From a bacterium (GTDB lineage Bacteria > Myxococcota_A > UBA9160 > UBA6930): a DNA stretch of 35,668 bases. Every line of letters begins with the position of its first letter. Within the stretch, counting starts at the first letter, position 1. This document shows, in pieces, positions 1-30,915 of the stretch. A program made the translations under genes and the position numbers. Below the pieces are notes generated by a model, which made no database searches, was not told where the DNA came from, and saw only the letters and a list, made by a program, of their open reading frames with translations. The stretch is taken from assembly GCA_024228115.1 (NCBI GenBank), contig JAAETT010000059.1, forward strand, positions 1-35,668. Reading direction: 5' to 3'.

Positions 1-2
1 CG

Positions 3-59
3 GTCGAGCCGGGAGGGCGTTCGCCCTGGGTCAAGGACCTTTCGACCCGGAAGATCTGA
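3..59 (+). CDS. Possible 3' end of an upstream gene (partial)
   Basis: The frame beginning at base 3 is open from the window edge to a TGA at 57-59. Its codons mostly end in G or C, as in the real genes of this window, and the last residues read SPWVKDLSTRKI. Frame 2 is also open, to a TGA at 122-124, but its third positions are less GC-biased. No family can be named from 18 residues. The call rests on codon bias alone. Confidence 0.25.
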   Translation, partial: VEPGGRSPWVKDLSTRKI

Positions 60-232
60 ATCGGAATCCGGAACGGCGGGCTGCGTCGCCCCCCGGCCAA
101 ATGATCAGATTTCTACGCTTCTGAGTGAGCGTCTACAGCCATCCCCGCACGGTAGCGCGCCGGGAGTGGGCTAGTCTGCCCGCGCGGCCAGGCATGGCCC
201 GTGTCGCGTGGCTTGCACGGAGGAAGAAGCGA

Positions 233-670
233 GTGACGACCGAAGCCAACAAGCAGATCGTCGAGGAGATGTGGCAGGCCATGGGCCGGATGGATTGGGA
301 GGCATTGAAGGCCTGCCTCCATCCCGAGGTCCACTACCAGGACGTCCCGACAGAGGATCCGGGCGCCCATGGCCCGGAGAATGTCGTGAAGCGGCTTCGC
401 ATCGCCTTCGACCATCTGGCAAGCCAGGAGCAGGTGCTGCACCACATGGCGGCCGAAGGTGATGTCGTCTTCCTCGATCACACGGAAACCTGGACGTTCA
501 AGACCGGCGAGCAGGTCCAACACACCTTCGCGACCGTGCACGAAATGAAGGACGGAAAGATCTCCCTCTGGAACGACTACTGGGACGTCCAGAATTTCGT
601 CAGCCAGTTCCCCCCGTGGTTCCTCGAAAAGATGGCAGAGAGCAGCGCAGCAGACTTCGGAGGGGAATAG
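233..670 (+). CDS. NTF2-fold protein, limonene-epoxide-hydrolase-like
   Basis: A 145-residue protein of the SnoaL/NTF2 superfamily. The closest recognisable relatives are limonene-1,2-epoxide hydrolases, small cytosolic enzymes that open epoxides. The C-terminal NDYWDVQNF stretch matches the RDYFDLREF segment that carries one catalytic Asp of that family. The HTETW stretch sits roughly where the family has Arg-x-Asp, so the Arg and Asp look replaced by His and Glu; a hydrolase role is therefore not assured. The start is the GTG at 233 because GGAGG at 219-223 lies nine bases upstream. A longer in-frame reading from 125 gives an Arg-rich, atypical N-terminus. The gene stands alone, about 100 bases before the copper-efflux operon, and shares no visible function with it. 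Confidence 0.8.
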   Translation: MTTEANKQIVEEMWQAMGRMDWEALKACLHPEVHYQDVPTEDPGAHGPENVVKRLRIAFDHLASQEQVLHHMAAEGDVVFLDHTETWTFKTGEQVQHTFATVHEMKDGKISLWNDYWDVQNFVSQFPPWFLEKMAESSAADFGGE

Positions 671-750
671 GCCCGGAACCGTCTCAAGTCGCAACTCGGA
701 GCCTCCGAGACGAAACCTTGCGCCCGGGCGAGCCCGGGGATACGGTCCCT

Positions 751-767
751 ATACCCTCCAGGGGTAT
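751..767. promoter_or_regulatory. CsoR-like palindromic operator before the copper-efflux operon
   Basis: ATACCC (751-756) and GGGTAT (762-767) form a perfect inverted repeat around a five-base spacer, five bases before the first start codon of the efflux operon. Operators of the CsoR/RcnR copper-sensing family commonly have a TACCC...GGGTA core, so a copper-responsive repressor is a reasonable guess. A weak promoter could lie just upstream (TTGCGC at 718-723 and TACGGT at 741-746, 17 bases apart). That would place the palindrome over the transcription start and ribosome-binding site. No regulator gene is present in this window. Confidence 0.55.
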
Positions 768-772
768 CAGTC

Positions 773-1180
773 ATGCGGATGATTCTCCTCCAACTCGGTC
801 TAGCTCTCAGCCTGCTCGCGCGAGGTCCGTTCTGTGACGTCTTGTGTGAAGCTCCTGCCGTCGAGGTCGCAGAGGCTGCCCCGGGCCAGCATGGCATGAC
901 GGATGACGCGCCCTGCCACAGCGATTCATCGGGCGGGGCAAAGGGAAGCAAGCCGTCACCGGTGAATTCCCACGATTCCTGCTCCATCTGTGAAGACCTG
1001 ATCCTTGCCTCGATCGATCCCCCGCCGGCTGGAGCATGGATCGATCTGCGCGTTTCGAGAAGTTCCGTTCATGAATCCCCGAGCCAGGCCGCGCGGCAAC
1101 CCTTGGCGCTCTCGAGCCCACGATCGGGTCAGCCAGAACCACCCGACATCCTTCTCCTGAAGTCGACACTTCTCATCTGA
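773..1180 (+). CDS. Small exported Cys/His-containing protein heading the copper-efflux operon
   Basis: A 135-residue protein of no recognised enzyme family. A hydrophobic N-terminus (about residues 3-16) suggests export to the periplasm. It holds five cysteines (about 21, 25, 48, 70, 73) and nearby histidines, including CHS near 48-50 and HDSCSIC near 67-73. These could bind Cu(I) or Ag(I). The C-terminus is a short hydrophobic PDILLLKSTLLI run. Small proteins of this layout often precede CusC/CzcC-type genes, and some are annotated as DUF2946-like; that placement is from memory of family patterns. The ATG at 773 follows the CsoR-like palindrome, whose GGGG may serve as ribosome-binding site; ATG 779 is an alternative. 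The efflux porin gene follows after 137 bases. A metallochaperone or sensor role is inference. Confidence 0.7.
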   Translation: MRMILLQLGLALSLLARGPFCDVLCEAPAVEVAEAAPGQHGMTDDAPCHSDSSGGAKGSKPSPVNSHDSCSICEDLILASIDPPPAGAWIDLRVSRSSVHESPSQAARQPLALSSPRSGQPEPPDILLLKSTLLI

Positions 1181-1317
1181 GAAGCCGCACGCCTCGGCGC
1201 CCAGCCAAGAACGGCTGAGCCGAGGAAAGGCGCGCACCGGAATCGGTGCGCTCATGGCCTGGCTGCGACGCGCTTCGTATCGCAGTCCCGATGCGATTCG
1301 AGCTTCAAGAGAGAATC

Positions 1318-2628
1318 ATGGAAAACGCGTCACCCATCATGGCCGGTCGCGCATGGACGGGAACAGGGATCGCCGCATGGGCGTTCTGCCTTCTCCTACT
1401 TCCGGTCGGCGCCGCCGGGGAATCCGTGCCTTCACCGCTCCCGCTTGGCTGGTGTCTCGAACGGGCCGCCGCCGAGAACCCTGCGATCGCCGAGGAACGC
1501 GCCCTCGCCGATGCCGCCAGCGCACGAATCCACTACGCCGACTCACTGGAGGACCCCCGATTCCACTACGAGGCCAGCAACATCCCGACCGGCGACCTCG
1601 ATTTCGGCTCGACCCCCCTTTCGGGCCACCAATTGGGGCTCAGCCAGCGCATTCCCTTCCCGGGTGTCCTCACGAACCGCCGCAGCGCAGCCACAGAAAA
1701 CGCCCGTGCGGCGGAACACGCCCACGAAGATCGCGCAGGACGAATCGCTTCCGGAGTCGAGATCGCGTGGGCCGAACTCGGCTTCGCTCAGCGTGCACTC
1801 AAGATCACCACGCGGAACATGGAGCTTCTGAGGCAACTCGTGCAGGTTGCTGAGGCGAAGTACAGGGTCGGAACGGGCCGCCAACAAGATGTCCTCCGCG
1901 CCCAGGTCGAATTGACAGCTTTGCTCGATGAGCAGCTTGCCCGGACCTCCGCGATCGAGCGCGCATCGGCTGAGCTGAACGAACTGCTCGACCTGGAGCC
2001 TGGCAGCCGATTCCCGACGACAGAGCGCCTCCTCGACGCGTCCCCCGTGCCCGATCTGCTTGAACTCCACGCTACCCTGGAAGAAACGAATCCGAAGCTC
2101 CTCTCACTTCAGGCCAAGGTCGCGGAGGCGGAACGCATCGTCCGAACGACCGAGCTCGAGGGCTACCCGGACTTCGACTTCGGCCTGGGCTACCGCATTC
2201 GCGAAGAAGTCGAAGGGGATACGGTGGACGGCGACGATTTCTTGAGCGCGTCGGTCACGCTCCGCCTGCCGATCGATCGCTCGAAATGGAACGCGAAGAA
2301 GGCCGAAAAGCAGGCTTTGCTGCGCCGCTCGCGAGCAGCCTACCGTCGATCTCGCGGAGCGCTCTTCTCCTCTCTTCGATCGGCCCATGCCGAACTGATT
2401 CGGGCCGACTCCGAGGGCGCCCTTCTGGAAACCGGTCTGGTACCCCAGGCCCGACAGTCGCTGGAATCAAGCCGCTCCGCCTACGCCGTCGGACGGATCG
2501 AGTTCCTCAGTGTTCTCGATAGCCAGGTTCGCCTGCTGAACGCGGAGCTTCGATTGATCCGTGCCCAGGCCGATCGAAGGCAGGCCTTTGCATCCCTCGA
2601 AGCCACCGCTGGGGAGACCCTCCGATGA
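1318..2628 (+). CDS. cusC: CusC/CzcC-type outer-membrane efflux channel (TolC family)
   Basis: A 436-residue outer-membrane factor that forms the exit duct of the tripartite RND pump encoded by the next two genes. An N-terminal hydrophobic segment ending near PVGAAG is a signal peptide. The rest shows the two TolC-family repeats of long helices: an early AAAENPAIAE helix, the GLSQRIPFPG beta segment typical of heavy-metal outer-membrane factors, and a second half beginning near NPKLLSLQAKVAEAE. No lipobox cysteine is seen, unlike many CusC proteins. The frame is open from GTG 1246, but ATG 1318 is chosen because it follows an AGAGAGA purine run and gives a normal signal peptide. The TGA stop overlaps the start of the adaptor gene (ATGA), indicating translational coupling. 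Confidence 0.88.
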   Translation: MENASPIMAGRAWTGTGIAAWAFCLLLLPVGAAGESVPSPLPLGWCLERAAAENPAIAEERALADAASARIHYADSLEDPRFHYEASNIPTGDLDFGSTPLSGHQLGLSQRIPFPGVLTNRRSAATENARAAEHAHEDRAGRIASGVEIAWAELGFAQRALKITTRNMELLRQLVQVAEAKYRVGTGRQQDVLRAQVELTALLDEQLARTSAIERASAELNELLDLEPGSRFPTTERLLDASPVPDLLELHATLEETNPKLLSLQAKVAEAERIVRTTELEGYPDFDFGLGYRIREEVEGDTVDGDDFLSASVTLRLPIDRSKWNAKKAEKQALLRRSRAAYRRSRGALFSSLRSAHAELIRADSEGALLETGLVPQARQSLESSRSAYAVGRIEFLSVLDSQVRLLNAELRLIRAQADRRQAFASLEATAGETLR

Positions 2629-4010
2629 ACCAACGGATTCTTCAGATCGTTCTCGTGGGCTGCGTTGCGCTTGCAGCCGGATGGTGGGGCCGGGGCCTTT
2701 TGGCGGGGCAGCAGACGACGGATGGAAGAACCATCGAACCCGCGGACGATCGCTGCGCAGGGGGAGCCGCGCCGCTCTACTGGAAGGCACCGATGGACCC
2801 GACCTACGTTCGCGACGAGCCTGGGAAATCCCCGATGGGCATGGATCTGGTTCCTGTCTGCGCGACGGCGGGGATGGCCCGGTCGGACGGCGCCATCGAG
2901 ATCAGCCCGCAGACCATCCAGAACATCGGTGTTCGTACGGAAGAAGTGACGCGGCGAGACCTGAGCCGTTCGATCCGCGCCCTCGGACGTATCGCCTATG
3001 ACGAAACCCGCGTGACGCATGTGCATACCAAGGTCCAGGGCTGGGTCGAGGCGCTCCATGTCGATTTCGTCGGACAGCGGGTAAGGAAGGGCCAACCGCT
3101 TCTGGAGGTGTACTCACCGGAACTCGTCGCCACCCAGGAGGAGCTTCTCCTCGCCGCGCGCTACCAGGCGGCCACCCAGGACAGCCCGTTCGAGGATGTG
3201 CGCGGCAGTGGCGCTTCTCTGCAGGAAGCGACGAGACGCCGACTCGAGCTCAGGGACATCTCCGAGCGGGACATCGAGAAGCTCCTCGAGACGGGGGAAA
3301 TCAAGAAGACGCTCACTCTCTACGCGCCGACCAGCGGCATCGTCACGGATCTCGGAGTTCGTAGCGGGATGGAGGTCGGCCCCAACCAGAACCTCTACAC
3401 CATCGCCGACGTCTCGAAAGTCTGGGTACGGGCAGAGGTATACGAATACGAGCTTCCCTGGCTCTCGCTCGGCCAGACCGGAGTGGTGGAACTCTCCTAC
3501 CTGCCAGGCAAGATCCACTCCGGCCCGCTCACCTATATCTCACCGTTCCTCGATCCGAAGACGCGCACCGCCGAGGTGCGATTGGAGCTTGCGAACCCGG
3601 ACGGCGAACTTCGTCCCGAAATGTTCGGCAACACCCTGCTTCAGGGCTCACCACGGAAGGACGTGATCGCCATTCCTTCGGAGTCCGTCATTCGCTCCGG
3701 GAGAAGAAGCCTCGTCATTCGAGCGCTTGGTGAGGGTCGATTCGAACCTCGCAATGTCTCACTGGGAATGGACTCCGGTGACGGCTGGCTCGAGATCACG
3801 GATGGACTCGCGGTGGGAGACGAAATCGTCGTGTCGAGTCAGTTCCTGATCGATAGCGAGAGCAACCTCCAGGAAGCCATCCGAAAACTCCTCGTCACCT
3901 CGGAAACCGACGAGACGGAAGCCCACGAAGGAACGCGGGAGATGCCCATGGGCGGGAAGCCTCCCATGGATCACTCGGCGCCCTCCTCCCACGAGGGTGA
4001 AGGGGAGTAA
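2625..4010 (+). CDS. cusB: CusB-type periplasmic adaptor of the Cu/Ag efflux pump
   Basis: A 461-residue membrane-fusion protein linking the inner-membrane pump to the outer-membrane channel. A hydrophobic anchor or signal (residues 8-27) is followed by the metal-binding N-terminal segment: APMDP near 55-59 and KSPMGMDLVP near 68-77. Met57, Met71 and Met73 correspond in layout to the Cu/Ag-binding methionines Met49, Met64 and Met66 of E. coli CusB. Barrel-sandwich and beta-barrel regions follow, including a KVQGWVEALHVDFVGQRVRKG lipoyl-like strand and an LYAPTSGIVTDLGV half-motif. The C-terminus is rich in Met, His and acidic residues (MPMGGKPPMDH), which may be an extra metal site. The gene starts inside the cusC stop, and its stop lies just upstream of the preferred cusA start. 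Confidence 0.9.
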   Translation: MNQRILQIVLVGCVALAAGWWGRGLLAGQQTTDGRTIEPADDRCAGGAAPLYWKAPMDPTYVRDEPGKSPMGMDLVPVCATAGMARSDGAIEISPQTIQNIGVRTEEVTRRDLSRSIRALGRIAYDETRVTHVHTKVQGWVEALHVDFVGQRVRKGQPLLEVYSPELVATQEELLLAARYQAATQDSPFEDVRGSGASLQEATRRRLELRDISERDIEKLLETGEIKKTLTLYAPTSGIVTDLGVRSGMEVGPNQNLYTIADVSKVWVRAEVYEYELPWLSLGQTGVVELSYLPGKIHSGPLTYISPFLDPKTRTAEVRLELANPDGELRPEMFGNTLLQGSPRKDVIAIPSESVIRSGRRSLVIRALGEGRFEPRNVSLGMDSGDGWLEITDGLAVGDEIVVSSQFLIDSESNLQEAIRKLLVTSETDETEAHEGTREMPMGGKPPMDHSAPSSHEGEGE

Positions 4011-4014
4011 CGCT

Positions 4015-7000
4015 GTGCTGAAACGGATCGTCGAGGCCTCAGCCAACAACCCTTTCTTCGTAGCGATTGAAATCGTGACTCTCCTGGCATGGGGGGCATA
4101 CGCCGTCCTGAACACCCCGCTCGATGCCATCCCAGACCTCTCGGACATCCAGGTCATCGTGTTCACGGAAGTTCCGGGCCAGGCGCCCCAGGTCGTCGAA
4201 GATCAGGTGACCTACCCGCTGACGACCGCCATGCTGGCCGTCCCCTTTGCCAAGGTCGTTCGCGGCTATTCCTTCTTCGGTTCTTCGTTCGTCTACATCA
4301 TCTTCGAAGATGGAACCGATCTCTATTGGGCCCGCAGCCGAGTCCTGGAGGCCTTGAACTTCGTCTCCGGTCGTCTTCCCGATAGTGTCACACCGACCCT
4401 GGGCCCCGACGCGACGGGTGTAGGCTGGATCTACGAGTACGCACTCGTCGATCGAACGGGGAAGCGCGACCTTTCGGAGCTTCGTTCGATCCAGGACTGG
4501 CACCTTCGCTACGAACTCCAGTCGGTTCCAGGCGTCGCCGAAGTTGCGAGTGTGGGCGGTCACATCCGGCAGTATCAGGTCGAGCTGGACCCGAACAAGC
4601 TCGCGGCCTTCGGCATTCCTCTCCGCCAGGTGCGCCATGCCATCGAGCGCAGCAACAACGAAGTCGGAGGCAGGCTTCTCGAAATCGCGGAATCGGAATT
4701 CATGGTTCGAGGCCGCGGCTACGTACAGAGCGTTCGCGATCTGGAGGAGATCGCGATCCGTGCCGAGGCGGGTGGTACACCCATCCTGCTTCGCAACATC
4801 GCGACCGTCTCCCTGGGCCCGGAGCTGCGACGTGGCCTGACGGATCTCGATGGAGAGGGTGAAGTCGCCGCGGGAATCGTGGTCATGCGCTTCGGGGAAA
4901 ATGCGCTCCAGACGATTCAGCGCGTCAAGGCGCGTCTCGAAGAGCTGAAAGCCTCCCTCCCTGAAGGCGTCGAGATCGTTCCCGTCTACGACCGTGCGCC
5001 GCTGATCGAACGAGCCATCGCCAACCTCGAAGAGAAACTCCTGCAGCAGGGGCTCATCGTTGCGCTCATCTGTTCTGTCTTTCTCTTCCATCTTCGCAGC
5101 GCGCTGGTGGCCATCCTGATTCTTCCACTGGGCATCCTGGTCTCGTTCATCGTGATGTACCACCAGGGGATCAACGCGAACATCATGTCCCTTGGCGGCA
5201 TCGCCATCGCCATCGGGACGATGATCGATGCCGGGATCGTGATGGTCGAGAACGCCCATCGACATCTCGAAAGGGACGGCGGAAAGCGCCCTCGCAAGGA
5301 GATTCTCATCGAAGCCGCCAGCGAGGTCGGCCCATCGCTCTTCTTCTCCTTGCTCATCATCACCTTCTCCTTCCTGCCCATCTTCGCGCTGGAGGCCCAG
5401 GAGGGCCGGCTCTTCAGACCCCTCGCATTCACGAAGACCTATGCCATGGCGGGGGCGGCGTTGCTCTCGATCACGGTCGTTCCTGCACTGATGGTCTGGA
5501 TGCTTCGCGGGCGGATCCTGCCGGAGGATCGCAACCCGTTGAACCGTGCGATCCTGCGTTTCTATCGCCCGCTCCTTCGAGGTGCGCTGCAGTTTCGCTG
5601 GATCGTGCTTGGAGTCGCGCTGCTTACACTTCCCGTCGGCGTCTTCACCTGCGGGCGGCTGGGAAGCGAGTTCATGCCGCCTCTGGATGAAGGCGACCTC
5701 CTCTACATGCCCACCACGTTGCCCGGTCTCTCGATCACCAAGGCCAAGGAGATTCTCCAGCAGACGGATCGGATCATTGCGAGTTTTCCCGAGGTCGAAC
5801 GCGTCTTCGGAAAGGTAGGACGAGCCGAGACGGCTACGGATCCGGCCCCGCTCTCGATGCTCGAGACGACCATCACGCTCCGTCCTCGTGCAGAGTGGCG
5901 GGAGGGCATGACCACCCAGAAGCTCATCGCCGAACTCGATCGGGCGATCCCGTTTCCCGGTGTCACCAACGCCTGGACCATGCCGATCAAGACGCGCATC
6001 GACATGCTCTCGACGGGAATCAAGACACCGGTGGGCATCAAGATCGCCGGTCCCGAACTCCTGGAGCTCGAGCGGATCGGGCGCGAGGTGGAGGCGAAAC
6101 TCGGAAGCGTCCCGGGTACGCAGAGCGTCTTCGCAGAGCGCGTCGTCGGAGGGAACTATCTCGACATCGAGATCAACCGACCCCGGATCGCCCGCCATGG
6201 GCTCACGGTCGGAGACGTTCAGGATGTCATCCAGACCGCCATCGGCGGCATGAACGTTAGCCAGACGATCGAAGGGCTCGAGCGCTACCCCATCAATCTG
6301 CGTTACAGCCGCGAACTGCGGGATGATCTCTCGTCCCTCCGGCGTGTCTTGATCTCGACTCCGGATGGCGCCCAGATCCCACTCGGGCAGCTCGCAACGT
6401 TCGAGTTCATCAAGGGTCCGCCTTCGATCAAGACGGAAAACGCACGCCCGAACGCCTGGGTCTACATCGACCTGGAAGGCGTCGACATAGGGACCTACGT
6501 CTCGGAGGCCAAGCGGATTCTTGCGGAGAGCCTGGAGCTTCCGACCGGCTACACCCTGACCTGGAGCGGGCAGTACGAATACCTGGAACGGACTGCGCTG
6601 CGATTGCTCTTGATCGCCCCGATCACCCTCGGGATCATCTTCCTGCTGCTCTACGTCAACTTTCGGCGGATCAGCGACACCCTGATGGTGATCGGCTGCA
6701 TCCCCTTCGCCATGGTCGGAGGCGTCCTGCTCCTCTGGCTATTGGACTACGACGTCAGCGCCGCCGTCGGTGCCGGGTTCCTGGCCCTCATGGGCCTCAC
6801 CGCGGAAACAGGCGTCATCATGTTGCTCTTCCTGAACCAGGCCCGCGACCGGTTCCAGGCTGAGGAGAAGCTCCGAGACCGCTCCGATCTCTGGGATGCC
6901 ATTGTCGCCGGTGCGACCGATCGCGCGAGGCCGCTGTTGATGACCGTGGCCTCCGACGTGATCGGATTGCTTCCCATCATGTGGGGGGCGGGTACCGGGT

Positions 7001-7155
7001 CGGAGACGATGCGACGCATCGCGGCCCCGATGGTAGGCGGAGTGCTCACGGCGACGATCGCGACGCTCATCCTTCTGCCGATCGTGTATTCAGCGGTGCA
7101 TGGCTGGCGCCTGCCGCGCAAGGCCGAGGAAATCACATCGGAGCCCGGTATTTGA
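4015..7155 (+). CDS. cusA: CusA-type Cu(I)/Ag(I) RND efflux pump
   Basis: A 1,046-residue inner-membrane, proton-driven pump of the heavy-metal RND family, with twelve transmembrane segments and two large periplasmic loops. Copper/silver specificity is well supported. Met565, Met615 and Met664 (in YMPTTLPG, APLSMLETT and IDMLSTGIK) have spacings of 50 and 49, identical to the E. coli CusA triad 573/623/672. TM4 reads GGIAIAIGTMIDAGIVMVEN, with the proton-relay Asp at residue 405 as in E. coli. This is the monovalent-metal signature rather than the CzcA type. The start is GTG 4015, seven bases after AGGGGAG (4001-4007); an in-frame GTG at 3997 inside cusB would add six residues. It completes a tight cusCBA operon, and a converging gene begins 20 bases later. 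Confidence 0.95.
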   Translation: MLKRIVEASANNPFFVAIEIVTLLAWGAYAVLNTPLDAIPDLSDIQVIVFTEVPGQAPQVVEDQVTYPLTTAMLAVPFAKVVRGYSFFGSSFVYIIFEDGTDLYWARSRVLEALNFVSGRLPDSVTPTLGPDATGVGWIYEYALVDRTGKRDLSELRSIQDWHLRYELQSVPGVAEVASVGGHIRQYQVELDPNKLAAFGIPLRQVRHAIERSNNEVGGRLLEIAESEFMVRGRGYVQSVRDLEEIAIRAEAGGTPILLRNIATVSLGPELRRGLTDLDGEGEVAAGIVVMRFGENALQTIQRVKARLEELKASLPEGVEIVPVYDRAPLIERAIANLEEKLLQQGLIVALICSVFLFHLRSALVAILILPLGILVSFIVMYHQGINANIMSLGGIAIAIGTMIDAGIVMVENAHRHLERDGGKRPRKEILIEAASEVGPSLFFSLLIITFSFLPIFALEAQEGRLFRPLAFTKTYAMAGAALLSITVVPALMVWMLRGRILPEDRNPLNRAILRFYRPLLRGALQFRWIVLGVALLTLPVGVFTCGRLGSEFMPPLDEGDLLYMPTTLPGLSITKAKEILQQTDRIIASFPEVERVFGKVGRAETATDPAPLSMLETTITLRPRAEWREGMTTQKLIAELDRAIPFPGVTNAWTMPIKTRIDMLSTGIKTPVGIKIAGPELLELERIGREVEAKLGSVPGTQSVFAERVVGGNYLDIEINRPRIARHGLTVGDVQDVIQTAIGGMNVSQTIEGLERYPINLRYSRELRDDLSSLRRVLISTPDGAQIPLGQLATFEFIKGPPSIKTENARPNAWVYIDLEGVDIGTYVSEAKRILAESLELPTGYTLTWSGQYEYLERTALRLLLIAPITLGIIFLLLYVNFRRISDTLMVIGCIPFAMVGGVLLLWLLDYDVSAAVGAGFLALMGLTAETGVIMLLFLNQARDRFQAEEKLRDRSDLWDAIVAGATDRARPLLMTVASDVIGLLPIMWGAGTGSETMRRIAAPMVGGVLTATIATLILLPIVYSAVHGWRLPRKAEEITSEPGI

Positions 7156-24432: not shown

Positions 24433-25530
24433 TCAGGCGGTGGCGCTGGGCGCAGGTCGATCGTGCACGAGGACACTGCGGCGTTCATCGAACAGCACAC
24501 GGATCTTCTGCGGGCCAGCCGCACCCTGCACGACACCGAGGCCCAGCGTCGGATGCTCGATCCGATCGCCCGGATCGAAGTGGTCGTTCAGGCTGTAGGA
24601 ACGGATCGGTCGGCTCATATCGGCCTCGATGATCTCGTTCTCCGGTTGGGCGGAGGATCGCCGGGAACGCGGCTTGGCCTTGGGCTTCACCCGCCCGGCA
24701 CTGGCTTCCCAGGCTTCCACCATGCGCGGCTCGCACTGAAGCACGGGAGAACCATCCTCGTAGTTCCAGGGCGGCGTCTCCTTCATCTTGAACGAGACGT
24801 ACTCGACGCGCAGCCCGAGCTCACCGAGCTCCTTTGCGAGGCGTTCCATTTCGCGAATCCATGCCGCACCGCGCTGGGCTGCGCGCTTGCGGCACAGTTC
24901 CCAGTAGCGAGGGCTGCCCGCCACCAGCACGATGGGATGCCCCTCGGCGAACGGTCCCTCGGTATGCGCTCCCAGCTCCTCGGTGAGGGCCGCAGCATTC
25001 GCCTCGGCGACCGCCGCGTGAGCGAGCGCAAGGAGCAACGCGCGCAGCGGCGTATCGCCGGTGCCGACTCGTCCTGCGGTCGGCGGCAGCCAACGGGTCG
25101 CCATCGCGATCAGGCTGTCATCGGGGCCCCGCCCGACCAGATCGATCTTGTCCAGACCGAAGTTCGGATCGTCCGCACCCTTTTCCTTGTCGGCCGGTGC
25201 GCTGCGCAGGGGAACCAGCGGGTGGAGGGCCTCGAAATGCCCTTCCTCATCGGCCATCAGCAGCGGCGGCCCGCCATCCTTGTGGCGCCGCGCCAAGGCG
25301 ATGCAGAGGTGCTCGCCTTCGCGACCCGCCTTTTCCTCGGCGGCCAGACGGCTGTTGTACGCGACGAGATACTTCTTGCCGGCATCGATGCGGTTGGGAG
25401 CGGCGGCCTTCTCGCGCTCGTACTCCGCCAGCAGGATATCGCCCGTAAGTTGGGCGGCAGCCTCCTGGAAGCCCTTGGCCTGGCGCACCAGCTTGTCATT
25501 GGCGCGCTCGATGAGCGGATGTTGACCCAC
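24433..25530 (-). CDS. Unknown protein with C-terminal SH3-like (CarD/DUF3553-type) domain
   Basis: A 365-residue soluble protein with no signal peptide. Residues 1-265 match no family I recognise. They include a mixed Ala/Arg-rich helical region and an AEGHPIVLVAGSPRYWELCRKRAAQRG segment. A Lys/Arg/Ser linker (about 275-295) separates this from a C-terminal 60-residue beta domain. That domain reads SLNDHFDPGDRIEHPTLGLGVVQ and then IRVLFDERRSVLVH. Such 'F-GDxIxHPxFGxGxV' modules occur in CarD-like, UvrD/PcrA-tail and many myxobacterial or deltaproteobacterial proteins, where they bind protein or nucleic acid. It starts at GTG 25530 after GAGGGGG. The M48 protease gene follows after eight bases, so expression is probably coupled; the functional link is unknown. 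Confidence 0.75.
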   Translation of the reverse strand: MGQHPLIERANDKLVRQAKGFQEAAAQLTGDILLAEYEREKAAAPNRIDAGKKYLVAYNSRLAAEEKAGREGEHLCIALARRHKDGGPPLLMADEEGHFEALHPLVPLRSAPADKEKGADDPNFGLDKIDLVGRGPDDSLIAMATRWLPPTAGRVGTGDTPLRALLLALAHAAVAEANAAALTEELGAHTEGPFAEGHPIVLVAGSPRYWELCRKRAAQRGAAWIREMERLAKELGELGLRVEYVSFKMKETPPWNYEDGSPVLQCEPRMVEAWEASAGRVKPKAKPRSRRSSAQPENEIIEADMSRPIRSYSLNDHFDPGDRIEHPTLGLGVVQGAAGPQKIRVLFDERRSVLVHDRPAPSATA

Positions 25531-25609: not shown

Positions 25610-26209
25610 TCAGGAACCGGCTTTCGCTGGCATTTTCGGACGCTGGGGGAGCCAGCGCAGGCCGAGAAGAAGCCCCAGAACGCCTGCGTAGGCCAGGGGG
25701 GCCGCCAGATCCGCCTTCGCGAGCCAGAGGAAATGCAGCACGGCCAGCCCACCCGCCAGGTAGGTCAGCCGGTGGAGGCGGATCCAGCGCCGCCCGAGCC
25801 GGCGCTGCCAGCCCCGGGTGGAGGTGATCGCGAGAGGCAGCAGGCAGAGCAGGGTCGCGAAGCCAATGCTGATGTAGGGCCGCTCGAGAATTTCCTCTGT
25901 CAGGAACGTCAGATCGAGCCCGAGGTCGAACACCAGGAACACGAGGAAATGGCAGATCGCATACGTGGCGGCAAGAAGTCCGAAACTGCGCCGATACGGT
26001 GCAAGTGAAGACCAACCGAGCCAGCGGCGGGCCGGCGTCACCGCAAGGCAAAGCAGGAGACAGCGCAAGGCCCACTCACCGGTCTCGTGCGTCATGACCT
26101 CGACCGGATTGGCACCGAGACCATCCTGCAGGGCACCCCACGCGAGACCCACCAACGGCAGGAGCAACACGGCGATGACCGCCCGGTGCAGCGTGGCGCG
26201 GGACGTCAA
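25610..26209 (-). CDS. msrQ: Heme-binding membrane subunit of the MsrPQ methionine-sulfoxide reductase
   Basis: A 199-residue membrane protein (YedZ/MsrQ family) that passes quinone-derived electrons through b-type heme to MsrP. About six hydrophobic helices are visible, with family motifs HETGEWALRCLLLCLAVTP, YRRSFGLLAATYAICHFLVF, ERPYISIGFATLLCLLPLAITS and RRWIRLHRLTYLAGGLAVLHFLW. The histidines near residues 41, 86, 148 and 160 are candidate heme ligands. The start is a TTG at 26209: the msrP stop lies eight bases upstream and overlaps TGAGGAG, which gives the ribosome-binding site. The open frame further upstream is antisense or out-of-phase to msrP. msrP and msrQ form a classic two-gene operon. 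Confidence 0.9.
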   Translation of the reverse strand: MTSRATLHRAVIAVLLLPLVGLAWGALQDGLGANPVEVMTHETGEWALRCLLLCLAVTPARRWLGWSSLAPYRRSFGLLAATYAICHFLVFLVFDLGLDLTFLTEEILERPYISIGFATLLCLLPLAITSTRGWQRRLGRRWIRLHRLTYLAGGLAVLHFLWLAKADLAAPLAYAGVLGLLLGLRWLPQRPKMPAKAGS

Positions 26210-26217
26210 TCGGCTCC

Positions 26218-27192
26218 TCAGTAGAACTTGCGAAGGTCCATGCCGCGGTAGAGAGATTCCACCTGCTCCGCGTAGCCGTTCAACATCAAGGTAGGCCGCT
26301 TTCCCCACTCGCCAATCCGCCGCTCCCGAGCTTGGCTCCAGCGCGGGTGGGAGACCTCGGGGTTCACGTTGGCGAAGAAACCGTACTCGCGCGCGTTTTC
26401 CATCTGCCAGGTGGTGCGGGGCTGCTTTTCTGACAGGCGAATCTTCACGATGGATTTGATCGACTTGAAACCGTACTTCCACGGCACGACCAGCCGCAGG
26501 GGCGCGCCGTTCTGGTTGGGCAGGACCTTTCCGTACATGCCCACGGCGAGAAGAGTGAGGGGATGCATGGCTTCGTCGATGCGCAGGCCCTCTCGGTAGG
26601 GCCAATCCAGGTTGCTGCGACGTTGCCCGGGCATCTGTTCCGGGTCGACGAGGGTTTCGAAGGCGACGTACTTCGCCTTCGAGGTGGGACCGAGACGTTT
26701 CAGCACGGCCGCCAACGGAATCCCGACCCACGGGATCACCATGGACCAGGCCTCGACGCAGCGCAGGCGATAGATCCGATCTTCGAGGGCTTGAGGCCGC
26801 AACAGGTCATCGAGATCGACGACGCCGGGCCGGCCAACCTCACCCTCGATCGCCACGGACCAGGGCCTTGGGCGCAGGCTCCCCGCACGGGCGGCTGGAT
26901 CGGATTTGTCGGTGCCGAACTCGTAGAAGTTGTTGTAGGAGGTCGCATCCTTGTAAGCGGTCGGCGGATCCTCGGCCTGCAGCTCCTTCGGGCCCGGAAT
27001 GACACCTGACAGTGGCTTCAGAGCGGGCCCCCCGTTCGGGCGTGCCTGCGCCGGCTCCGCATCGAAACAGCCGGGCAAGCCCAATCCGACCGCGGTTCCG
27101 GCAGCCGCCTGGAGAAACGCCCGCCGGCGCAAGAAGACGCCCTCGGCAGTGATTTCCGAGGACGGAATCGGGGTGGGGCGAAAGCTCCTCAT
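26218..27192 (-). CDS. msrP: Periplasmic molybdopterin methionine-sulfoxide reductase MsrP
   Basis: A 324-residue molybdoenzyme of the YedY/MsrP family that reduces methionine sulfoxide in periplasmic proteins. A twin-arginine signal is clear (RRRAFLQ at 22-28, then a hydrophobic [13 protein letters not shown]). The Mo-ligating cysteine is Cys145 in [15 protein letters not shown], very near its position in the E. coli precursor. Other family segments are [39 protein letters not shown] and [12 protein letters not shown]. Start ATG 27192 has AGGAG five bases upstream. It is followed directly by msrQ. Upstream lies a divergent region with a 34-base-period direct repeat facing doxX. Its role fits the copper and oxidant-defence flavour of the window. 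Confidence 0.95.
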
Positions 27193-27350: not shown

Positions 27351-27749
27351 ATGGACTTCCTTCGACCCCACGCCGACAAGATCTACGCCGCGATGCGCAT
27401 TCTCACGGGCCTCTTGTTCGTCCAACACGGCCTGCAGAAGATCTTCGGCCTGTTCGGCGGCGCGCCGGAGGGAGCGCCGGGCTTCATCGTGTACGGCGCT
27501 GGCGCCATCGAACTGGTTGGCGGCGCCCTCGTCGCGATCGGATGGTTCACCGGGCCGGCCGCGTTCATTTCGAGCGGCACCATGGCCTTCGCCTACTTCC
27601 TCGGACACGTCGCCCAGAAGGGAAGCCTCCTGCCGATCCTGAACGGCGGCGACCTCCCCATCCTCTACTGCTGGATCTTCCTGCTGATCGCCGCCAGGGG
27701 CGCCGGCATCTGGAGTGTCGACGGCGCTGGAACAGCTTCCGCCGACTAG
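27351..27749 (+). CDS. DoxX family membrane protein
   Basis: A 132-residue protein with four transmembrane helices. DoxX-family signatures are visible: [19 protein letters not shown] near residues 15-33, [26 protein letters not shown] near 48-73, and [38 protein letters not shown] near 78-115. DoxX-like proteins are linked to quinone or thiol redox chemistry and oxidative-stress complexes in some bacteria; the exact role here is unknown. The ATG has AAGGAG close upstream. It diverges from msrP and is followed after 32 bases by a five-heme cytochrome lipoprotein, so the two are probably one transcript. This suggests a membrane redox function. Confidence 0.9.
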
Positions 27750-27781: not shown

Positions 27782-28987
27782 ATGAGGTGGCCCGCACTCG
27801 CAGTTCTGGTTGGCTCGCTCGCGGGTTGTGATGCCAGTGAGCCGGCGGCGCCCATGGACCGAGCCGGTGCCGAGGCGAACGCAGGCGGCCAGCGGGAGCA
27901 GGTACTGGGTTCGTTCCTCGAGGCACATTGGAAGCGGCCCGTCCCGGTTCAGGGCCCGGCGCCGGAAGATTGGAGCCCGCTCGAGACTTCGCTGCATCCG
28001 AAGGATTGCGGGTCCTGCCATCCGCAACAGCTCGCGGATTGGCAGACCTCATTGCACGCGGACGCATTCTCGCCCGGCTTCTCGGGCCAGCTGATCGAAG
28101 GTGGCCTCGCCCAGCCCCATGCATTGCGCGGCTGCCAACGCTGCCATACCCCCCTGGAAGAACAGCAACCCTTCGGCCCGGGGCCGGATCATACGGCAGA
28201 GCCCTCTGCCTACGACCCGGAGCTTCGGCAGGCGGGGCTCATCTGTGCGGGCTGCCACGTCCGCGCCCACCGCCGCTTCGGACCGCCGCGCCGCGCAGAA
28301 CTCCCACCGCTGCCCGAGGCCATTCCGCATGCCGGTTTCGAAACCCGACCCGAGTTTCAGGAATCGCGCTTCTGTGCGCCGTGCCACCAGTTCTTCGACC
28401 GCTCCGGCGTGAACGTCCAGAACACCTACTTCGAATGGAAGGAGAGCCCCCACGCAGCCAGGGGCGAGACCTGCCAGAGCTGTCATATGCCGGATCGGCG
28501 GCACCTGTGGCGGGGCATCCACGACCGCGAAATGGTCGCCGCCGGGGTCGACGTAGCGTGGGCCGAAGGCGACGCGACCGCGCTCGTCCTCACCGCCCAT
28601 GGCGTGGGCCACGCGTTTCCTACCTACGTGACACCTCGGGTCGTCATGGCCATCTGGCAGGAAGATGCAGCCGGCCAGGCGATCGAGGGAACCCGGGGCG
28701 AGCATACGATCGGCCGCAAGGTGAACTTCCGCAAAGGCGAGGATGTCTTCGATACCCGGGTGCCCGCTGGAGGTACAGCGCGCCTCGAGTACCCACGCCC
28801 CCCGGAGCCGGGCGCCGTCGCACTGATCGGTAAGGTCACGGTGGACCCGGACTACCACTACCGGGGCGTGTTCGAGCACTACCTGCCAACCCTGGGCGAC
28901 ACCAAGGCACGCGCATTGATCGCCGAGGCTCTCGAGCGCTCCCAACGCTCCTCCTACACGCTGACAGAGCTGCGCCAACCGCTCTAA
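27782..28987 (+). CDS. Five-heme c-type cytochrome lipoprotein (cytochrome c554-like)
   Basis: A 401-residue exported cytochrome. A short signal peptide ends in a good lipobox (SLAGC, Cys16). Five CXXCH heme sites are present: 76-80, 118-122, 155-159, 198-202 and 231-235. Their order and the segments HPKDCGSCH, GCQRCHTP and FCAPCHQF resemble the cytochrome c554 family. The C-terminal 150 residues lack heme motifs and look beta-rich. It probably carries electrons in the periplasm at a membrane; the partner enzyme is not identified. Start ATG 27782 has AAGGAG six bases upstream. A long frame extending to 27542 is antisense-like and out of phase with doxX. It is likely co-transcribed with doxX. 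The next gene downstream converges. Confidence 0.92.
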   Translation: MRWPALAVLVGSLAGCDASEPAAPMDRAGAEANAGGQREQVLGSFLEAHWKRPVPVQGPAPEDWSPLETSLHPKDCGSCHPQQLADWQTSLHADAFSPGFSGQLIEGGLAQPHALRGCQRCHTPLEEQQPFGPGPDHTAEPSAYDPELRQAGLICAGCHVRAHRRFGPPRRAELPPLPEAIPHAGFETRPEFQESRFCAPCHQFFDRSGVNVQNTYFEWKESPHAARGETCQSCHMPDRRHLWRGIHDREMVAAGVDVAWAEGDATALVLTAHGVGHAFPTYVTPRVVMAIWQEDAAGQAIEGTRGEHTIGRKVNFRKGEDVFDTRVPAGGTARLEYPRPPEPGAVALIGKVTVDPDYHYRGVFEHYLPTLGDTKARALIAEALERSQRSSYTLTELRQPL

Positions 28988-29141: not shown

Positions 29142-29224
29142 GCATTCGCCTGGATGGGGCGAAGCGATTGCACCACCGGATGAAAGGCAGGGAGCCTTCC
29201 GCCCGGCGACGCGACTCATGAGGG

Positions 29225-29899
29225 TTAGTTACCGCAGGGGTTGCACGGGTTCCCCGCCGAACAAGGATTTGCCCCGCAGGGGTTGCACGGATTCGCCGCG
29301 CTGGTGCCGGCCGGGGCCTCGAAGCCCTGTTGGATCTTCTCGACGTAGGCCGTCAAGGCAGCGAGTTGGCGGCCGCTCCAGGAGAGCGGCTCGTTCGCCA
29401 TCGGCGTGATCATGCAGAACTGCACCATCTCGGCGGCATTCACCTTGTCTACTCCGGCAGCCTGGTGGGGCATCGCCACGCGATGGGGGTACGCGTCGGC
29501 GAAACTGGCGTTCATCTGGGTGGTTCCACCAACGTGGCAGGTGGCGCAGGCGACTGCGCCGCTACCCGAGAGCGCCTTGTCATTCCAGAGGGCCTCCCCC
29601 TCGGCGACCAGGGCCGCATCGGCCGAAGCCACCTTCACTCCCTTCGGCTGCATGAAGCGCGACGCGTCAGCGCCACCTCCGCCACAGGGGTTGCACGGAT
29701 TGCCGCCGCACGGATTGCACGGGTTCGCGCCACATGGGTTGCAGGGATTGGCACCGCAAGGGTTGCAGGGGTTCGAAGCGCAGGGGTTGGCCGCGCAGGG
29801 ATTGCACGGGTTCTCCGCGGCCGCGGGCGGCCCGATCAGCGTGACGGCGAAGACCACCATCCATGCGAGTTGCGAGAGCCGGGCGATGGATCGAATCAT
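29225..29899 (-). CDS. Monoheme c-type cytochrome framed by Asn-Pro-Cys repeats
   Basis: A 224-residue exported protein with a signal peptide (1 to about 28). Residues 30-73 are a low-complexity array of NPCNPCG/NPCNPCA units with 11 cysteines. A class-I-like cytochrome c domain (about 85-195) has one heme site, CATCH at 118-122, and candidate sixth ligands in RVAMP or FCMITPM. A shorter second array (203-223) adds five cysteines. The middle domain's QFCMITPM and LAALTAYVEKIQ segments recall SoxA/TsdA-like cytochromes. Cysteines follow a C-x2-C-x4-C-x2-C rhythm, which could bind a soft metal such as Cu(I) or form disulfides. The ATG overlaps the upstream DUF3179 stop (ATGA), so the pair is translationally coupled. 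The repeats lie in a matching 24-base DNA repeat. Function unknown. Confidence 0.85.
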   Translation of the reverse strand: MIRSIARLSQLAWMVVFAVTLIGPPAAAENPCNPCAANPCASNPCNPCGANPCNPCGANPCNPCGGNPCNPCGGGGADASRFMQPKGVKVASADAALVAEGEALWNDKALSGSGAVACATCHVGGTTQMNASFADAYPHRVAMPHQAAGVDKVNAAEMVQFCMITPMANEPLSWSGRQLAALTAYVEKIQQGFEAPAGTSAANPCNPCGANPCSAGNPCNPCGN

Positions 29900-30915
29900 T
29901 GGAGCGTTCCTTCTGATCGGTCGGACTGCGGGCCGGATCTTCCAGCCTCGGGCGCGACACGAAAAACACTGGCGTCGGGGTGAAAGGCTGCCCAGGCAAA
30001 CCAGTACCCCTCCACGACCTCGACCCGCGAAGGTGCATCGACATCGAAGACCTGGGCGACATCGTCGTAGCGTATGCGCACTTTCTCACCGGCGAGCTGC
30101 TCCTCGGCGAAGCCACCGGCGCGTACGAGCTCTGCTGCCGGATAGCCCCGGGCCACCACGCCCCGGATACGAAGGCCTAACGTCGGCATCTTCGGGTGAT
30201 AGCGGTCGTCCGAGGGTGCCGGAAACATCAGGCGGGAAGACGTGGCGTAGCCCGCATAGGGTGAGCGTCCGTAGTTCCTCGTGTGACCGGTACGCCGCGA
30301 GAGGATCGTCGTATCCGGATGCCGCAGGCGCCAGGCGCCCCAGCTCTCCATGCGCGAGCGCAGCAACTCGAGCTCGCCCCCACGGCTCGCACCCGAGATC
30401 GCGCGGGAAGAGATCTGGGACCACAAGCTCCCGGTCTCGCGGTCGTACATGAGAACATCAGATTGGTAGAGCAGACCCGATACGCCGTAGGTTCGCTCCG
30501 CACCGGCGACGCGACGATCGAAGACCATTCCGGTACCGCACAACGGACACCAGCTGATCAGCACGGGGCGCCCACCCACGGTGTCGTTGACCAACTCGTG
30601 GTGGTCGAGGATCGCCACCGGATAGGCACGGGCTTCGCCGTTCCATTCGAAGCCCAGGACGATGGCGTCATCCTCCCAGGTGAGATCTCCCGAGCTGCCG
30701 GCGGGCCCGGTCCTCGGGTGATCGAGGGCCGGGATGCCGTCTTGAGGGGGGCCTCCGGCTCGGATCTCCGCGACCGGGACATCCGCTTCCGCCAGGTCGA
30801 AGCCGTTTCGAATCGGCTCCGCAGCCGTCGCGAACGCGATCAGGAGAACGACGTGAATACTCGCGACCGGGCGGCCGAATCTCCTGCTTTGTCCCGCTCC
30901 CTCGTGTTCGCCCAA
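29896..30915 (-). CDS. DUF3179 domain protein
   Basis: A 339-residue exported protein of the DUF3179 family. A hydrophobic segment (about residues 19-32, IHVVLLIAFATAA) is a signal or anchor. The family signature is present: ARAYPVAILDHHELVNDTVGG near 95-115 and SWCPLCGTG at 121-129. Its two cysteines (123, 126) form a CxxC that could bind metal or cycle as a thiol pair. Later segments VSGLLYQSDVLMYDRETGSLWSQ and TRNYGRSPYAGY are also typical. The start is a TTG at 30915, supported by GGAGG nine bases upstream. It precedes, and overlaps by four bases, the CNPC-repeat cytochrome gene. The domain has no established function; the pairing suggests periplasmic metal or redox handling. Confidence 0.88.
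   Translation of the reverse strand: MGEHEGAGQSRRFGRPVASIHVVLLIAFATAAEPIRNGFDLAEADVPVAEIRAGGPPQDGIPALDHPRTGPAGSSGDLTWEDDAIVLGFEWNGEARAYPVAILDHHELVNDTVGGRPVLISWCPLCGTGMVFDRRVAGAERTYGVSGLLYQSDVLMYDRETGSLWSQISSRAISGASRGGELELLRSRMESWGAWRLRHPDTTILSRRTGHTRNYGRSPYAGYATSSRLMFPAPSDDRYHPKMPTLGLRIRGVVARGYPAAELVRAGGFAEEQLAGEKVRIRYDDVAQVFDVDAPSRVEVVEGYWFAWAAFHPDASVFRVAPEAGRSGPQSDRSEGTLQ

Follow-up and report, generated by a model that had tools for sequence, protein, structure and literature searches.

Cytochromes flanked by Asn-Pro-Cys arrays: an apparently undescribed family of envelope proteins for redox and metal or sulfur handling

Two described systems come closest to the locus analyzed here. The SoxA/TsdA cytochromes (PF21342, TIGR04484) carry heme c with an extra cysteine at an axial position, and the arginine four residues before that cysteine is invariant in TsdA and SoxA; the active-site residues used for comparison below are those named in PMC4423706. 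Bufferins and oxazolins are MNIO-modified, exported, cysteine-rich peptides of variable repeat number, and in repeat-type oxazolins the array length varies while the cysteines are kept (PMC12452194). DoxX genes lie near oxazolin clusters, as do, in small numbers, Oxidored_molyb and ferric-reductase-like genes, and a Buf1/cytochrome c/FGE fusion has been reported, FGE being a cuproenzyme (PMC12452194). A third family represented at the locus, DUF3179 (PF11376), has Sec-containing UxxC forms on record (PMC9312934, PMC13188914).

The window, by which we mean the whole 35,668-nucleotide stretch of bacterial contig JAAETT010000059.1, encodes a 224-aa, exported-type, monoheme protein at 29225..29899 (−), hereafter the array cytochrome. 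As the initial annotation had described, this reading frame places arrays of 11 and 5 cysteines around a single CATCH heme motif: a signal peptide leads into an N-terminal NPC array with 11 cysteines (about codons 29–76; 29672..29815), followed by a SoxA/TsdA-like cytochrome c core containing CATCH and an invariant third cysteine in QFCM (29315..29650), and then by a C-terminal NPC array with five cysteines (29225..29295, stop included), all on the minus strand and with approximate limits. The C-x2-C-x4-C-x2-C rhythm noted for the window recurs across the family, in which cysteines are most often spaced by 3 (383 cases) or 5 (148 cases).

The heme domain, judged from profiles and a structural model, is a member of the SoxA/TsdA superfamily. 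PF21342, the SoxA-TsdA cytochrome c domain, matched 20/20 members at E ≤ 0.001 and the window protein at 36.4 bits (cut-off 27), and TIGR04484 matched weakly, far below its cut-off. An AlphaFold2 model of the domain (pLDDT 89) had only SoxA or TsdA structures among its top seven Foldseek matches, though with E-values of 0.045–0.1. The third, non-heme cysteine of the core is invariant in a 20-row alignment and aligned with a SoxA cysteine, the model itself being without heme, and is predicted to be the axial heme ligand. Unlike SoxA/TsdA cytochromes, the array cytochrome is single-heme, bears cysteine arrays on both flanks and lacks the thiosulfate-site residues: in the family alignment, the TsdA/SoxA arginine (−4 from the cysteine) and the TsdA serine (+4) are absent, with mostly Met and Pro in their place. 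The view that neither partner at this locus has an established function stands for DUF3179, despite the Sec-containing forms on record. The heme domain of the cytochrome is identifiable as SoxA/TsdA-type.

Homologues of the array cytochrome (n = 27) were found in the window's class (8/91 genomes), in the order holding a Granulosicoccaceae MAG (12/48 genomes) and in seven further gammaproteobacterial genomes; a viral_contigs scan returned no relative. Genome records with known titles are MAGs, often fragmented, and beyond the window genes were called with a simple custom script, so that start codons and short genes there are approximate. The repeats are a family trait, being carried by 26 of the 27 homologues with 6 to about 70 cysteines each. 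The one homologue without arrays (L131) groups with an array-bearing one (L128), so the absence looks derived. All 27 have exactly three cysteines in the core segment.

Array length and linker vary, yet Asn-Pro-Cys is kept, with NP preceding 607 of the 752 array cysteines in the 27 homologues. Against its close relative in G076, the N-terminal array of the window shows 17 synonymous and 0 nonsynonymous changes. Repeats with identical peptides differ in their codons almost solely at third positions; the array is therefore not a product of chance, and on the same ground we reject the idea that the repeats arose by recent slippage. We conclude from these codon patterns that the NPC arrays are kept by selection, which supports the initial picture of a genuine cysteine array beside an electron-transfer-type heme. 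In composition, the arrays have almost no His or acidic residues and are also Met-poor, and several members space one cysteine per 6–8 residues, without CxxC. Because relatives occur so far apart among bacteria, and selection preserves as many as about 70 repeat cysteines in them, the array cytochromes seem to form a genuine family, not yet described, of envelope proteins that handle metal or sulfur and take part in redox reactions; in the open-access literature searched, NPCNPC and related strings gave nothing relevant. Other NPC-repeat proteins were also seen. Small exported NPC-repeat peptides occur in G000 (L002/L043, G000:C655) and in the same genus (L044–L047), with a DUF2330 gene beside the G000 copy and an NQR2/RnfD-family gene near the G076 copy. 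An alphaproteobacterial NPC-array protein (L004, about 1–805, minus strand) has a different C-terminal domain without a Pfam match, which may resemble cytochrome P460.

Upstream of the array cytochrome lies a DUF3179 gene with CPLC (29896..30915, −; PF11376 262 bits, cut-off 27; TTG start uncertain), and the two share the ATGA overlap originally reported (29896–29899). This overlap is not general, since relatives keep the gene order with short gaps. The DUF3179 gene adjoins the array cytochrome in 5/8 array-bearing genomes of the class (G000, G076, G078, G004, G020), from three families, and is not beside it in G080, G016 and G013. Its adjacency is therefore non-random but not obligate, as two further genomes also attest: in the congener G077 the array cytochrome appears to have been deleted, with both locus neighbours, DUF3179 among them, kept and a scar in which a 57-bp 3′ cytochrome remnant (window 29224–29281) runs into sequence that corresponds to the window from 29917 on, and in G075 no cytochrome was found at the locus. 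Elsewhere in the class, DUF3179 usually occurs without an array cytochrome. A dedicated DUF3179 and array cytochrome pair, as first suggested, is thus only partly supported. The DUF3179 model is confident (pLDDT 91) and had no convincing match in the PDB, the best being weakly NirD/Rieske-like.

The steadiest neighbour of the array cytochrome in the class is a pentaheme cytochrome rather than DUF3179. The locus reaches beyond the span first annotated, to a convergent pentaheme c-type cytochrome gene with a lipobox-like N terminus (LAGC) at 27782..28987 (+). This gene occurs in 20/91 class genomes, including 8/8 with the array cytochrome (P about 1.5e-6, a rough calculation uncorrected for kinship). 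The two cytochrome genes lie side by side in convergent orientation in G000, G080, G013, G004, G020 and G016, and the contigs of G076 and G078 stop where the pentaheme gene would lie. In G028, a 55-aa reading frame ending AANPCNPCAR (L136:5207–5374, +) sits beside the pentaheme gene at the array-cytochrome position. The wider synteny, mainly within the window's family, includes DoxX (27351..27749, +) and an MsrPQ-like pair (25610..27192, −) made up of Oxidored_molyb (26218–27192) and Ferric_reduct (25610–26209) genes; a 365-aa protein without a Pfam or NCBIfam match (24433–25530, −) is syntenic in several class genomes. About 20–22 kb from the locus, consecutive OEP, CusB-like (HlyD_D23, HMBD) and ACR_tran genes (1246–7155, +) are probably a heavy-metal RND efflux set of CusCBA type.

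The gammaproteobacterial surroundings are different in part. DUF6969 accompanies the cytochrome in 12/12 fetched loci of the Granulosicoccaceae order; it was not found in the 91 window-class genomes, and no paper on it was found in the open-access literature searched. In most loci of this order a SUMF1-like gene follows the array cytochrome, with a CGVC motif in 10 of 11 checked copies (L130 being without it), and the array cytochromes have lipobox-like starts. No pentaheme cytochrome was found in the Granulosicoccaceae-order genomes tested; among the gammaproteobacteria, G542, G624 and G493 have a pentaheme partner next to the array cytochrome, and G446 has one at another place in its genome. 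YeeE/YedE genes occur in L129 and L130, DUF302 in L127 and L129, and thioredoxins in G557. A second small Cys-array protein adjoins the array cytochrome in L129 (8592–8876, +), and in L125 (1–958) genes for MNIO (PF05114) and DUF2282 lie some 6 kb away from an array cytochrome.

The arrays resemble bufferins and oxazolins in being exported, cysteine-rich and variable in repeat number, and share DoxX, Oxidored_molyb and ferric-reductase-like neighbours with oxazolin clusters, but have NPC rather than EGKCG motifs and a heme domain. The MNIO gene reported as lacking from the window was not found in the whole genome either, nor in any of the 17 window-class genomes tested (PF05114), and MNIO modification of the arrays was rejected because the search of the genome found no such enzyme; some gammaproteobacteria encode PF05114, both with and without the array cytochrome.

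Functionally, a soft-metal reading of the arrays is possible, given the copper-like context and a genome in which no MNIO was found. We tentatively propose that the protein is a thiol array of the periplasm that probably binds Cu(I), has a Cys-ligated heme of its own and exchanges electrons with the pentaheme cytochrome. The extra cysteine would act as axial heme ligand, the array thiols would hold a soft metal, with Cu(I) the likeliest, and electron exchange between the pentaheme cytochrome and the array heme would either maintain the thiols in their reduced form or reduce the captured metal on arrival, with DUF3179 (CPLC) as an optional thiol-redox helper. This proposal draws on the selected cysteines in arrays almost devoid of His and acidic residues, on the variable length with cysteines kept and the DoxX, Oxidored_molyb and ferric-reductase-like neighbours, both as in oxazolins, on SUMF1-like neighbours recalling the Buf1/cytochrome c/FGE fusion (PMC12452194), and on the pentaheme partner in all eight array genomes of the class. 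Counting against it, no copper gene adjoins the locus (one CusCBA-like set is 22 kb off), and the Granulosicoccaceae-order genomes tested lack the pentaheme cytochrome. Periplasmic copper proteins are often Met- and His-rich, and the Met- and His-poor arrays therefore also weigh against Cu(I). Somewhat doubtful is a self-contained, heme-wired variant, in which a SoxA/TsdA-type cytochrome would itself load metal or sulfur onto the NPC thiols at its flanks, an architecture with no description in the open-access literature searched.

YeeE/YedE together with the SoxA/TsdA kinship opens a sulfur alternative, a serious if rather unlikely rival to the soft-metal reading: the Cys-ligated heme would attach reduced sulfur oxidatively to the cysteines on either side, as though SoxA and SoxY were fused into a single chain. 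The fold, the profile and the third cysteine aligned with SoxA speak for such a carrier, as do YeeE/YedE and DUF302 in two gammaproteobacterial loci each, but the −4 arginine and +4 serine are replaced and SoxB (TIGR04486) was not found over cut-off in 17 window-class genomes. The Sox pathway itself was rejected for the class genomes tested on the SoxB result; gammaproteobacteria were mixed. Between the two readings, our preference is for the thiol array linked to a heme, with Cu(I) as its probable metal, rather than for the sulfur carrier. Less likely again is a thiol-disulfide redox buffer whose cysteines would store and release electrons via the heme, in exchange with either DUF3179 or thioredoxins; CxxC spacing, CPLC, the G557 thioredoxins and the nearby MsrPQ-like pair would suit it, but not the several members without CxxC. 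A structural or adhesive tail cross-linking to the envelope, with the heme incidental, would fit low-complexity repeats and lipobox-like starts but is improbable beside the invariant core residues and recurrent linkage to redox genes.

In this testable protein family a heme, probably with a Cys ligand, is combined with long thiol arrays under selection, and DUF3179 and DUF6969, both uncharacterised, gain a recurring redox context.
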